64,000 nt of DNA, taken from Pseudomonas sp. p1(2021b). GTDB lineage: Bacteria; Pseudomonadota; Gammaproteobacteria; Pseudomonadales; Pseudomonadaceae. The notes under the pieces are model-generated. The model did no database searches. It was not told where the DNA came from and was given only the letters and a program-made list of their open reading frames with translations. The stretch covers positions 2,881,001 to 2,945,000 of the forward strand of contig NZ_CP083746.1 in the NCBI RefSeq assembly GCF_020151015.1, read 5' to 3'. Below, piece after piece: positions 12,166-60,058 of this stretch. Every line of letters starts with the position of its first letter. The first letter of the stretch is position 1. A program made the position numbers and the translations under genes.

Positions 12166-12274
12166 GTCGCGATGCCCTTGGCAGGATGGCGCGGGCATGC
12201 AGGACGAAAGCCTCGGCCTTGTCGGTCGGGCTCGTTCGCCACCGGATCACCCCGCCCGGTTGAAAGTCGAAAAC

Positions 12275-12470
12275 GTCACGAGGCAGGTCTCCTGGCTTGC
12301 ACCGTACCGGCCGGAGCCGGTGGAGCGACGCCTTCCCGCGCAGGGCGCAGTGGCTGTGTCGATCCTGTTCAGTGCCTACAGTTGCGGGGGCAGCCGCGGC
12401 TTGGACCGCGTTCCCGTCTTAGCTGCGGCCGACGCCGCAGAACCTCGAAGCGGCAAGGCTACGCAGTGGT
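12275..12470 (-). promoter_or_regulatory. Cobalamin riboswitch for cobW-cobN-chlI-VWA
   Basis: Read on the minus strand, the region contains GGGAA, a GGCTGCCCCCGCAACTGTA element matching the conserved B12-box core, and the conserved 3' end AGCCAGGAGACCTGCCT at 12,281–12,297. These are the signature elements of the AdoCbl riboswitch. It lies in the leader of cobW, so cobalamin should repress the downstream chelatase operon. Ends are approximate. Whether it acts by termination or by occluding translation is not evident. Confidence 0.9.
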
Positions 12471-12674
12471 GGGTAGGCGGTCAACCATCAGCGCAGTATT
12501 CCCTCCATCTCCATAGAGAATGGATTTTGTGGGGGCGGCGCACTCTCGATGGGAGCTGGCGATAGCCTGCGATGGGCTGCAAAGCAGCCCCAAGCCCTCA
12601 AACGCTGGAACCCCTCCAGACTCAGCGCCTTCGACACCAATTGACGGAGCATCGGCCGCATGCTTTGCTTGCAC
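12471..12674. other. Spacer between divergent B12 riboswitches, with REP-like hairpin
   Basis: This stretch must contain both divergent promoters for the cobalamin operons. It also has a perfect 7-bp hairpin GGGCTGCaaaGCAGCCC at 12,574–12,590, preceded by TGCGAT, which resembles one half of a Pseudomonas REP element. No gene is supported here. Confidence 0.4.
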
Positions 12675-12880
12675 CTTGCGTTCAGGTGCCCCCTCGGGGG
12701 TGAAACGGGAAACCGGTGCGTCGCAGGCCCCAAGGGGCCAGACAAGGCCGGTGCTGCCCCCGCAACGGTAAGCGAGTGCGCGTCTTGACCACTGTGCCGC
12801 GTCGTATGGCATGGGAAGGTGACGCTGTCCAGGGAGCCTGCCTCCTCCTCGCCAGCCCGGAGACCGGCCTGACGACGAAT
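12675..12880 (+). promoter_or_regulatory. Cobalamin riboswitch for cbtB-cbtA-cobE-cobM
   Basis: The plus strand shows CAGGTGCC, GGGTGAAACGGGAA, CCGGTG, CTGCCCCCGCAACGGTAAG and the 3' element GCCAGCCCGGAGACCGGCCTG (12,851–12,871, written here as consecutive conserved blocks). This is a textbook AdoCbl riboswitch. The leader continues about 100 nt to cbtB and includes a further perfect 7-bp stem at 12,915–12,935, which could be the expression platform. It pairs head-to-head with the minus-strand riboswitch. Confidence 0.95.
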
Positions 12881-12981
12881 GAACACCCCGCGGTGGGCGG
12901 GTGCTGTCGTGTGCCCTGGGCAAACCCTGCCCAGGCGTGACGCCCGTGCCCGTCGCCCCTAAAAAAGCAGAGGAACGCGTC

Positions 12982-56285: not shown

Positions 56286-56466
56286 GCGTGACGTCCTGTA
56301 ATCGAGGGGCAATAGGTGCCAAAAACAGCGATTTTAGCCGAACCTGCGTGAAAAGCCGCAAAGCGTCTCGTATCAAGAAATGCACTGCATGCCATGCGGA
56401 TAATTAACTTCCAAGCCAGCCTGTGGTTTTCCTAGGATGAAAGCCGGTCAATCAGGAGCCCAGCCC

Positions 56467-57117
56467 ATGCGCTTGCCGTTCGCCACTGCCCTTTTCGCCT
56501 TGTTCACAAGCTTCGCTGCCCACGCCGAGACCTCTGCCATGGATACCCAGTTACTCGATGCCGCCCAACGTGGCGATGCCACAGCCATACGCCACCTGCT
56601 CGACCAGGGGGCCACAGTGGATGCCCGCGACAGCCAGGACCGTACGGCGCTGCTGGTCGCCACCCACGCCAACCGCGTGGAAGTGGCCAAGGTGCTGATC
56701 GAGGCCGGTGCCGACGTCAACGCCAAGGACACTATCCAAGACAGCCCCTACCTGTATGCCGGCGCCCGCGGCCTGAACGACATCCTGCGCCTGACCCTGG
56801 ATCACGGGGCCGACCTCAAGAGCACCAACCGCTACGGCGGCACGGCATTGATCCCCGCTGCCGAGCGCGGGCATGTCGAGACCGTGCAGCTGCTGATCGA
56901 TGCCGGCGTCGACGTGAACCACCTCAACCGGCTGCACTGGACCGCCCTGCTCGAAGCGGTGATCCTCGGCGACGGCGGCCCACGTCATGTGGAGATCGTG
57001 CGTCGTCTGCTGGCGGCCGGTGCGGACCCGATGATCACCGACAAGGATGGCGTGACGGCCCTGGAACATGCGCGCCAGCGTGGTTATCGGGAGATGGTGT
57101 CGCTATTGGAAAAGTAG
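56467..57117 (+). CDS. Periplasmic ankyrin-repeat protein
   Basis: 216 residues; ATG preceded by CAGGAGCC. A signal peptide (MRLPFATALFALFTSFAAHA) is followed by about five ankyrin repeats, seen as LLDAAQRGDATAIRHLLDQG, ALLVATHANRVEVAKVLIEAG, LYAGARGLNDILRLTLDHG, LIPAAERGHVETVQLLIDAG and HVEIVRRLLAAG. Such small exported ankyrin proteins accompany catalase or other systems in bacteria, but no such partner is adjacent. It probably mediates protein contact in the periplasm. Confidence 0.9.
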   Translation: MRLPFATALFALFTSFAAHAETSAMDTQLLDAAQRGDATAIRHLLDQGATVDARDSQDRTALLVATHANRVEVAKVLIEAGADVNAKDTIQDSPYLYAGARGLNDILRLTLDHGADLKSTNRYGGTALIPAAERGHVETVQLLIDAGVDVNHLNRLHWTALLEAVILGDGGPRHVEIVRRLLAAGADPMITDKDGVTALEHARQRGYREMVSLLEK

Positions 57118-57266: not shown

Positions 57267-57674
57267 ATGAGCACCCAGACCTACAGCATTTCCGACCTGT
57301 CCCGTGAGCTGGACATCACCACTCGCGCGATCCGCTTCTATGAGGAACAAGGCCTGCTCAGCCCTGAGCGCCGGGGGTTGGAGCGCATCTATTCAGCGCG
57401 TGACAAGGTCACCCTGAAACTGATCCTGCGGGGCAAACGCATTGGTTTTTCATTGGCCGAGTGCCGTGAGCTGATCGAGCTGTACGACCCCAGCGGCGGC
57501 AACCTCAAGCAGCTGACCAGCATGCTCGCCAAGATCGCCGAACGTCGCGCTCAGCTGGAGCAGCAGATGCTCGACATCCAGCAGATGCACCTGGAGCTGG
57601 ACACCGCCCAGGAGCGCTGTGAACAGGCCCTGGCCGCCACCTTGAACAAGCAGCACCACAACAATAGCCATTGA
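57267..57674 (+). CDS. MerR-family regulator, LiuR-like
   Basis: 135 residues. The MerR helix-turn-helix is YSISDLSRELDITTRAIRFYEEQGLL, seen as SISDLSREL and TTRAIRFYE, followed by the RIYSARDKVTLKLILRGKRIGFSL recognition wing (segment RIYSARDK) and a coiled-coil dimer helix rich in Gln and Glu. No metal-binding Cys cluster is present, so it is an organic-effector type. It lies 20 bp before the HMG-CoA lyase gene, which suggests control of leucine/isovalerate catabolism. Confidence 0.9.
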   Translation: MSTQTYSISDLSRELDITTRAIRFYEEQGLLSPERRGLERIYSARDKVTLKLILRGKRIGFSLAECRELIELYDPSGGNLKQLTSMLAKIAERRAQLEQQMLDIQQMHLELDTAQERCEQALAATLNKQHHNNSH

Positions 57675-57694: not shown

Positions 57695-58594
57695 ATGTCA
57701 TTGCCTCAGAATGTCCGCCTGGTCGAGGTCGGCCCACGCGACGGCCTGCAGAACGAAGCCCAGCCCATCAGCGTCGCCGACAAGGTCCGGCTGGTGGATG
57801 ATTTGACCGATGCTGGGCTGTCCTATATCGAAGTGGGCAGTTTCGTCTCGCCCAAGTGGGTGCCGCAGATGGCGGGCTCGGCCGAGGTGTTCGCGGCGAT
57901 CAGGCAACGTGCAGGCGTGACCTATGCCGCATTGGCGCCCAACCTGCGCGGCTTCGAAGATGCCCTGGCAGCGGGCGTGAAGGAGGTGGCGGTATTCGCG
58001 GCCGCCTCCGAGGCGTTTTCCCAGCGCAACATCAACTGCTCGATCAATGACAGCCTCAAGCGCTTCGAGCCGATCATGGACGCAGCGCGCAACCATGGCG
58101 TACGCGTGCGTGGCTATGTCTCCTGCGTGCTGGGCTGCCCCTATGAAGGCAAGGTCAGTGCCGAGCAGGTCGCGCCAGTGGCCCGTGCACTGCACGAGAT
58201 GGGCTGCTACGAAGTCTCCCTGGGCGACACCATCGGCACCGGTACCGCAGGCGACACCCGCCGGTTGTTCGAGGTGGTTTCGGCCCATGTGCCGCGCGAG
58301 CGGTTGGCCGGGCATTTCCATGACACCTACGGCCAGGCCCTGGCCAATGTCTATGCCAGCCTGCTCGAAGGCATCCAGGTGTTCGACAGTTCGGTCGCAG
58401 GCCTGGGCGGCTGCCCCTATGCCAAGGGTGCTACCGGCAACATCGCGACCGAGGACGTGATCTACCTGATGCAGGGCTTGGGCATCGAGACTGGCATCGA
58501 CCTTGCGCGACTGATCGCCGCTGGCCAGCGCATCAGCACGGTGCTGGGCCGCGACAATGGGTCGCGGGTCGCACGGGCCTATAGCGCACGATAA
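57695..58594 (+). CDS. mvaB: Hydroxymethylglutaryl-CoA lyase
   Basis: 299 residues; ATG with ACAGGAAT upstream. The catalytic-site motif VEVGPRDGLQNE, AALAPNLRGFEDAL, the metal-binding HFHDTYGQALANV and the signature VAGLGGCPYAKGATGNIATEDV are all present. It cleaves HMG-CoA to acetyl-CoA and acetoacetate, the last step of leucine degradation. The regulator gene lies immediately upstream. The other leucine-pathway (liu) genes are not in the window. Confidence 0.95.
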   Translation: MSLPQNVRLVEVGPRDGLQNEAQPISVADKVRLVDDLTDAGLSYIEVGSFVSPKWVPQMAGSAEVFAAIRQRAGVTYAALAPNLRGFEDALAAGVKEVAVFAAASEAFSQRNINCSINDSLKRFEPIMDAARNHGVRVRGYVSCVLGCPYEGKVSAEQVAPVARALHEMGCYEVSLGDTIGTGTAGDTRRLFEVVSAHVPRERLAGHFHDTYGQALANVYASLLEGIQVFDSSVAGLGGCPYAKGATGNIATEDVIYLMQGLGIETGIDLARLIAAGQRISTVLGRDNGSRVARAYSAR

Positions 58595-58626
58595 ATCATC
58601 GAGGTGTCACATTCGTGTGGGTGGAG

Positions 58627-58667
58627 TGTTACCTCCCCCACGTTTGCCAGCGAAAAATCGGGTAACA
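58627..58667 (+). promoter_or_regulatory. Inverted repeat upstream of the sigma-54 promoter (possible CbrB site)
   Basis: TGTTACC (58,627–58,633) and GGTAACA (58,661–58,667) form a perfect 7-bp inverted repeat about 85 bp before the -24 element. The distance suits an enhancer for a sigma-54 activator; CbrB is the expected one for Crc-sequestering RNAs. The assignment is inferred. Confidence 0.55.
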
Positions 58668-58749
58668 GGGAAACAAATCGGCAGATTTTCAGGCCCTCAG
58701 ATTTTTTCGATTGCGCTCAACCAATTGATTTTAAAGGGTTTTTAAAAGT

Positions 58750-58764
58750 TGGCACGGCACCTGC
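58750..58764 (+). promoter_or_regulatory. Sigma-54 -24/-12 promoter of the CrcY-like RNA
   Basis: TGGCACGGCACCTGC has the invariant GG (58,751–58,752) and GC (58,763–58,764) separated by exactly 10 bases, as required for sigma-54. Transcription would start near 58,776. Confidence 0.8.
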
Positions 58765-58775
58765 TTTATCTCTGG

Positions 58776-59140
58776 CATAACAAGAACAAAAACGCGATAC
58801 CCAATAAAAACAATAGGTAACGGCTCTGACATAACAAGAACAACACGGCAGAGGCGTAGCAAGCAGATTTTTTTGGAGTAAACACGCTTTTCAGGGGTTC
58901 GCCCCGCGGTCTGGCACAGAACAATAAAACTACCTCCAGGTAGCGGCAGCCAGGTTCGGATCAGCAATGATGGAAGCGGGTCGGCGCTCAAAAAAATACG
59001 TTTGCTCTTGTGCCCCGAATGGGGGCCACCCGCGGTACAGAGGCAAAGGCTGACAAAAACAACAACAGGCCAGTCTCCAATAATAAAAAAAGAGCAGGCA
59101 ACAAACGCTTATGAGGGGAGCTTCGGCTCCCCTCAGTGCT
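58776..59140 (+). ncRNA. crcY: CrcY-like Hfq/Crc-sequestering small RNA
   Basis: The region has no convincing ORF and is rich in A-rich CA motifs (AAnAAnAA type) on the plus strand: 58,779–58,793, 58,803–58,815, 58,833–58,843, 58,920–58,929, 59,055–59,067 and 59,079–59,092, six in all. The first and third share CTCTGxCATAACAAGAACAA. It is preceded by a sigma-54 promoter and ends at a 9-bp hairpin with a TTCG loop (59,113–59,134). From memory, P. putida CrcY is about 368 nt and lies between mvaB and mgtC, which fits exactly. It would titrate Hfq/Crc and relieve carbon catabolite repression, activated by CbrB. The end is approximate and overlaps the mgtC stop. Confidence 0.85.
59113..59134. terminator. 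Terminal hairpin of the CrcY-like RNA, shared with mgtC
   Basis: GAGGGGAGC-ttcg-GCTCCCCTC is a perfect 9-bp stem with a stable UUCG loop. It overlaps the mgtC stop codon from the other strand and likely ends transcripts from both sides, although a long U-tract is missing. Confidence 0.65.
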
Positions 59141-59657
59141 TCCTGTCATCCCCTTCCGGCCTCTCCTCCTCGCCCTCGATCTTCTCCACCAGCACCGGCA
59201 TGCTGCCCAGCACCAACAGCGCCAGCACCGTACTGATCACTGCCGTGGCCTCGCGACCCATGCCGGCGGCGGTACCGATGGCGGCGGTCATCCACAGCCC
59301 AGCAGCGGTGGTCAGGCCTTTCACGTGGCTGGTGTCCGTGCCGTTTCCCTTGAGAATGGTACCGGCACCGAGAAAGCCGATGCCCGCGACAATGCCCTGG
59401 ATCACTCGGCTCAATGCCTGTTCGTCCGCACCCGCCATGCTTGGCGCCAATACGAACAGCGCCGCGCCCAGGGATACCAGCATATGCGTGCGCACGCCCG
59501 CCGACTTGCCCTTGTGCTCGCGCTCGAAACCCAGCACCGCGCCGAGAAGCGCCGCCATGATCAGGCGTACGAGGACCTGGGTGACCTCGCGCACATCGGT
59601 GATGTCGGCGAACTCGGCCTGTATCGCCTGCCATATCGTGTACCACCAAGGATCCAT
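59133..59657 (-). CDS. mgtC: MgtC/SapB-family membrane protein
   Basis: 174 residues; the ATG (MDPWWYTIWQAI) with a GGGAGG site is chosen. The N-terminal conserved region has RLIMAALLGAVLGFEREHKGKSAGVRTHMLV, seen as LGAVLGFEREHKGKSAGVRT, then GIVAGIGFLGAGTILK and LTTAAGLWMTAAIGTAAGMG. Four to five helices are predicted. The protein is short and lacks the C-terminal ACT-like domain of virulence MgtC, as in the SapB subgroup. The tail is charged (EKIEGEEERPEGDDRKH). Function in Mg2+ limitation or membrane potential is only inferred. Confidence 0.92.
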   Translation of the reverse strand: MDPWWYTIWQAIQAEFADITDVREVTQVLVRLIMAALLGAVLGFEREHKGKSAGVRTHMLVSLGAALFVLAPSMAGADEQALSRVIQGIVAGIGFLGAGTILKGNGTDTSHVKGLTTAAGLWMTAAIGTAAGMGREATAVISTVLALLVLGSMPVLVEKIEGEEERPEGDDRKH

Positions 59658-59818: not shown

Positions 59819-60058
59819 ATGCCCGTTGAAATCGATGAAACCACCCGCCGCTGCACGCTGATCGGCGAGGACCTGCGCCTCGAGGCCGAAGGCCCGGACA
59901 TCGAGATCGTCACCGATGAACAGCTGCGCATGTCCGTGGCACTGCTCGCAGGCCAGCGCGTCCCTATCACCGAGGCCGAAGCCGACGCGCTCACCGTGGC
60001 CGGCGCGCTGGACAGCCGCAGGCACCTGAAGTCCAGCGCACCGGGCTCCGTGATCTAA
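59819..60058 (+). CDS. DUF3203-family small protein
   Basis: 79 residues with a strong TAGGAGGA site. No membrane segment. The sequence (CTLIGEDLRLEA, a strand pair, AGQRVPITEAEADALTVAGALDSRRHLKSSAPGSVI) fits the Pseudomonas DUF3203 family as I remember it. The function is unknown. It is divergent from mgtC, with 161 bp between them. Confidence 0.75.
   Translation: MPVEIDETTRRCTLIGEDLRLEAEGPDIEIVTDEQLRMSVALLAGQRVPITEAEADALTVAGALDSRRHLKSSAPGSVI

Follow-up and report, generated by a model that had tools for sequence, protein, structure and literature searches.

Region 58595-59140 of the window, the whole 64,000-nucleotide (64-kb) stretch of Pseudomonas DNA analyzed here, holds, with a probability of roughly 0.97, the gene for the CrcZ-family decoy RNA CrcY, as judged from the match to the Rfam model and to relatives, the synteny and a tree of related RNAs. 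Its family identity, its synteny, the presence of a separate crcZ, the number of its A-rich motifs, their predicted accessibility and the conservation of its promoter elements are established here. CrcY of this genome is most likely an ordinary, well-conserved copy of an RNA whose kind, place and mechanism have been described before, and its main use for the field is comparative, as crcY promoters can be set beside those of crcZ.

Identity and genomic context

The Rfam scan of the 64-kb window returned a match to RF01675 (the CrcZ family, 'Pseudomonas sRNA CrcZ', with a gathering score of 95) at 58777-59167 on the plus strand, with 300.1 bits and an E-value of 4.5e-83. This match spans model positions 1-398, the full model length, and is the best of the three matches above gathering score in the whole window. 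The other two are cobalamin riboswitches (12265-12462, minus strand, and 12667-12886, plus strand), which lie one on each strand with about 200 bases between them and face away from each other. The interval 58595-59140 of the original prediction takes in the promoter region, and the RNA itself extends from about 58776 to about 59140 on the plus strand, with both ends approximate. It is located directly 3' of mvaB, on the same strand (57695-58594; hydroxymethylglutaryl-CoA lyase, NCBIfam PRK05692, 495.8 bits with a cut-off of 246), and is followed by a convergent MgtC-family gene on the minus strand (59133-59657, with a provisional start codon). The latter matches Pfam PF02308 with 126.2 bits (cut-off 31.4) and has two NCBIfam matches, both under cut-off. 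Upstream of mvaB, an open reading frame (ORF) for a MerR-type regulator is present at 57267-57674 (plus strand), with all of its MerR-type matches below the cut-offs. This gene may be the equivalent of PP3539 in the PP3539-mvaB-crcY co-transcript that is described in the available part of PMC6292655. The ORF list for the region contains 45 entries, most of which are not genes; two proteins are also encoded near the locus, an ankyrin-repeat protein that, as judged by eye, probably carries a signal peptide (56437-57117, plus strand) and a DUF3203 protein (59819-60058, plus strand).

Separation of crcY from crcZ

A genome scan identified a single other RF01675 copy, located at G000:C1:687219-687618 and scoring 347.4 bits, which lies between a gene whose product carries the sigma-54 interaction domain PF00158, called cbrB, and a gene called pcnB. 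Both names are assigned by position, and hfq is present in the genome as well. Because of the family match, the flanks and this second genomic copy beside cbrB/pcnB, the window copy is assigned to CrcY and the other copy to CrcZ. The relationship was further followed in a set of 30 aligned RNAs (rows), which comprises the window RNA, all 20 mvaB-linked RNAs from 39 scanned mvaB loci, the genome's own crcZ and all eight cbrB-flanked RNAs among loci L003-L032; the other 22 of L003-L032, all mvaB-flanked, were excluded in favor of named loci. The window RNA shares 68.2-88.3% identity with the 20 other crcY rows, the highest value (88.3%) being reached with L033 (P. hunanensis), and 61.8-63.9% with the nine crcZ rows, including 61.8% with its own crcZ. 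In the tree of these 30 rows, the 21 mvaB-linked and the nine cbrB-linked RNAs are split at 100/100, with one label change needed per group, and it is this fully supported split that identifies the window RNA as CrcY. Since Rfam holds a single family for these RNAs, named CrcZ, the family match would also suit a further CrcZ copy or a CrcX instead of a CrcY orthologue. Such an assignment is very improbable, as crcZ occupies the separate locus at 687219-687618 and both the tree and the flanks group the window copy with mvaB-linked copies; a CrcZ identity is rejected on the basis of position and tree. The original prediction of a CrcY between mvaB and mgtC is hence upheld by the RF01675 match, the flanking genes, the separate crcZ and the grouping in the tree with the mvaB-linked RNAs of named Pseudomonas species, and no evidence for any other identity of the RNA was found in the analysis.

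A-rich motifs

Six A-rich motifs had been proposed for the plus strand, and a search with the pattern AANAANAA confirmed exactly six clusters in the region. These putative Hfq/Crc motifs are found on the plus strand at 58779-58792, 58803-58813, 58833-58843, 58920-58927, 59055-59065 and 59079-59089, with mean unpaired probabilities of 0.98, 0.94, 1.00, 0.93, 1.00 and 1.00, respectively; the third motif is predicted to lie in a hairpin loop. The pattern occurs 25 times on both strands of the 64-kb window, compared with a mean of 4.2 and a maximum of 10 in 100 dinucleotide shuffles, and 12 of the 25 matches fall within the CrcY RNA. Outside this RNA, no 330-base stretch on either strand of the window contains more than two clusters. 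The predicted structural ensemble of 58776-59140 leaves the motifs unpaired with a probability of 0.98, as opposed to 0.35 for the remainder of the molecule and 0.58 for non-motif A bases.

The number of clusters is largely maintained among relatives. Among the 20 other crcY rows, 18 have six (L056 has five and L062 seven), and so do all nine crcZ rows. For a wider comparison, one hit per sequence was retained for 147 of 207 sequences (206 loci and the window), which after removal of exact duplicates left 143 sequences that form 93 clusters at 90% identity, used as non-redundant rows. Six A-rich clusters are found in 76 of these 93 rows, with three, four, five or seven in the remainder. Six A-rich Hfq motifs are likewise mentioned for CrcZ/Y of A. 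vinelandii in the accessible text of PMC6292655.

Secondary structure and 3' end

The RNA folds better than its shuffled versions (z-score of -3.97; none of 100 shuffles as good). Its likely 3' end is formed by a terminal UUCG hairpin of 9 bp, GAGGGGAGC-UUCG-GCUCCCCUC, at 59113-59134 (plus strand), with a predicted pairing probability of 1.0. Across the 93 non-redundant rows, 94.7% of the cells of this hairpin contain standard pairs and 67 cells are changed on both sides. No T-run follows and the hairpin is absent from the terminator scan list. The length of about 365 nt that the original prediction derived from this hairpin is therefore an estimate, as is the 3' end. Lengths of the P. putida RNAs were sought in PMC12533007 and not found there. 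The hairpin also covers the last two bases of the stop codon of the convergent mgtC, creating a tight tail-to-tail overlap.

Beyond the A-rich motifs, two conserved stretches, GATTTTTTTGG and AATACGTTTGC, are located in the two arms of a predicted central stem (58858-58876 pairing with 58988-59006, plus strand), with AATACGTTTGC in the 3' arm. This stem encloses A-rich motif 4, and part of its region is already paired in the Rfam consensus. In the 93 rows, standard pairs account for 86.9% of the cells in the outer seven pairs and for 94.2% in the inner 10 pairs, compared with 17-54% and 40-70%, respectively, in slid controls. Several pairs are invariant and some positions are often unpaired (position 58861-59003 deviates from a standard pair in 73 of the 93 rows, and 58870-58994 does so in 42), so that the covariation support for the stem is limited. 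Sliding the inner stem by one base yields more two-sided changes (37 versus 20) and fewer pairs (70.2% versus 94.2%). The predicted stem is thus supported by its pairing, and covariation by itself provides no proof; the conserved stem could conceivably do more than space the A-rich loops. A second, long-range helix, in which UGCUCUU (59003-59009) would pair with its complement AAGAGCA (59090-59096) in the window RNA, was chosen by RNAalifold on the 30 rows and has a 5' arm that overlaps the central stem. It is not claimed here, given a probability of just 0.02-0.03 in the window RNA and pairing in 76.4% of cells versus 67.1% in the slid control over the 93 rows, a count that may underestimate the helix as the alignment is gapped near its 3' arm.

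The central stem also bears on a potential coding function. A 28-codon ATG frame is open at 58967-59053, and L034 and L041 share a short residue stretch with it, which would suit either a small mRNA or an RNA with a dual function. The frames of the relatives vary in start, length and end, several relatives have no frame, and the common residues coincide with conserved positions in the central stem. This small ORF was consequently rejected, and a coding role is highly unlikely.

The crcY promoter

Upstream of the RNA, a sigma-54 -24/-12 element of the GG-N10-GC type, TGGCACGGCACCTGC, is found by pattern match at 58750-58764 (plus strand) and is conserved in relatives. Its GG-N10-GC spacing is compatible with a transcription start at about 58776. 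It is the sole match to TGGCAC-N6-TGC in the window, which means little by itself because the mean expected by chance is 2.1. Its position relative to the RNA is nearly fixed: 20 of 21 crcY rows and all nine crcZ rows have it beginning 27 bases 5' of the Rfam start, and in the remaining crcY row, L062, the distance is 30 bases. The element had been termed perfect, a description that fits GG-N10-GC and fails for the fuller consensus, which we take to have TTGC at -12 and to which TGGCACGGCACCTGC shows one mismatch. An IHF-like site, CAACCAATTGATT, is present on the minus strand at 58718-58730 and follows the pattern YAAN4TTGATW, which we assume to be the IHF consensus. It occurs in 18 of the 21 crcY rows (missing in L056, L059 and L062) and in none of the nine crcZ rows, for which about 183 upstream bases were searched with this strict pattern, so that a weaker crcZ site is possible. 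A search for sigma-70 promoters on the plus strand of 58400-59400 returned none.

CbrB subsites of the F (TGTTAC) and R (GTAACA) types are described for the P. putida crcY promoter in the available portion of PMC6296734. A putative F1 subsite, TGTTAC, is located at 58627-58632 (plus strand), centered at -146.5 from 58776, and a putative CbrB-type subsite R', GTAACA, is located at 58662-58667 (plus strand), centered at -111.5; both are present in 21 of 21 crcY rows. The same portion of that study places the center of R' in P. putida at -112, and the crcY promoter studied here agrees with the published P. putida dissection in its subsites and in this distance (PMC6296734). A candidate for R2, GAAACA, with one mismatch, lies at 58670-58675 (plus strand), and subsite R1 is not recognizable in the window promoter. 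The F, R and sigma-54 elements each occur in all 21 crcY rows and all nine crcZ rows. The two promoter classes differ in arrangement, with an F-to-R distance of 34-35 bases in 20 of 21 crcY rows (24 in L047) versus 19-21 in the nine crcZ rows, and R' begins 114-118 bases 5' of the RNA start in the crcY promoters compared.

These elements also weigh on the origin of the RNA. CrcY might mainly be a form (CrcY*) processed from a longer transcript that starts 5' of mvaB, to which the sigma-54 promoter only adds, and this is supported by published work (PMC6292655) and by the MerR-type gene and mvaB preceding crcY on the same strand. The presence and conservation of sigma-54, CbrB-type and IHF-like elements speak against it, and we regard it as quite unlikely to be the main route. 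Processing to CrcY* and initiation at the sigma-54 promoter are compatible and do not exclude each other.

The occurrence of R' in 21 of 21 crcY promoters contrasts with the published result for P. putida, where this subsite reportedly made no difference to crcY expression in any of the three media covered by the accessible sections of PMC6296734. It is a tentative and rather doubtful proposal that crcY promoters possess a control geometry of their own, in which R' may serve an untried condition or regulator; if true, the two decoy RNAs would receive different inputs. The differences between crcY and crcZ in subsite distance and in the IHF-like site could be a reason for keeping two copies.

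Distribution among relatives

At least one RF01675 match over the cut-off is carried by each of the 199 genomes drawn from the genus, with one match in 22, two in 153, three in 22 and four in two genomes; some of these matches are possibly below the cut-off, as in the four-match genome G082, where two are fragments under it. A family-level draw of 99 genomes, which includes 10 of the genus and among them the own genome, contains a match in 94 and a match over the cut-off in 91, and RF01675 is found in none of 14 control genomes. Within the same family, the four genomes of genus g13 (G210, G226, G237 and G248) have no match, all 18 other genera sampled have one, and genus g10 reaches up to five (G269). 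In G051, an assembly listed with 9% contamination, two CrcZ-family RNAs (L186 and L178; G051:C1:6292288-6292664 and 6292825-6293200) form a tandem pair with a spacing of 160 bases, and a third copy lies at another site. Ten CrcZ-family copies from genomes with three or four matches (L121, L126, L127, L128, L130-L134 and L137) have neither mvaB nor cbrB within about 1.5 kb on each side and are perhaps CrcX-like. The RF01675 loci collected from these genome scans are, for the most part, those with the highest scores.

With respect to synteny, 39 of 80 fetched mvaB loci were scanned with Rfam. The RNA is located just 3' of mvaB on the same strand in 20 of the 39 loci, all titled Pseudomonas, and is not found there in 19, which include P. 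resinovorans, P. alcaligenes, P. otitidis, Halopseudomonas, Stutzerimonas, Halomonas and Colwellia. The mvaB-crcY linkage extends to loci titled P. fluorescens and P. viridiflava; a close mgtC is present in 10 of the 20 crcY-bearing loci, whose names belong mainly to what we take to be the putida group. The mvaB linkage is thus wider than the P. putida group and the mgtC linkage is a narrower trait. The suggestion that the match supports a P. putida-group assignment is qualified accordingly.

Proposed mechanism and comparison with known systems

Control by CbrB, sigma-54 and IHF, binding of Hfq/Crc and relief of catabolite repression are inferred from work on P. putida, P. aeruginosa and A. 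vinelandii. On this analogy, CbrB would bind the upstream subsites once good carbon sources are exhausted, IHF would bend the promoter DNA and sigma-54 RNA polymerase would initiate at about 58776. The resulting RNA of about 365 nt is predicted to present six single-stranded A-rich stretches between hairpins, which may take up several Hfq/Crc assemblies and thereby relieve the repression of mRNAs needed for less preferred carbon sources. The genome encodes a predicted two-RNA Hfq/Crc decoy circuit of CrcY and CrcZ, the recognition of which aids annotation.

CrcZ and its relatives are described as Hfq/Crc decoys under carbon limitation in the available parts of PMC6422490 and PMC8871633. CrcX of P. 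syringae is named in the latter among the CbrB-driven Hfq/Crc decoys and by this description belongs to the same group as CrcY (PMC8871633). P. putida CrcY resembles the window RNA in its RF01675 family, its mvaB-linked place, its F1 and R' CbrB subsites, its IHF-like site and its GG-N10-GC element; its sequence comes from another species or strain, and the comparison was made via the Rfam family and relatives. The genome's own CrcZ shares with CrcY the Rfam family, the six A-rich clusters and the promoter type, but differs in its cbrB/pcnB flanks, in an F-to-R subsite distance of 21 instead of 35 bases and in the absence of the strict IHF-like pattern from the 183 bases upstream. RsmX, RsmY and RsmZ bind another protein than CrcY through another motif. 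An analogy of the decoys with RsmX/RsmY/RsmZ is stated in the accessible text of PMC8871633 and, with no family relation claimed, these RNAs resemble CrcY in titrating a translational regulator.
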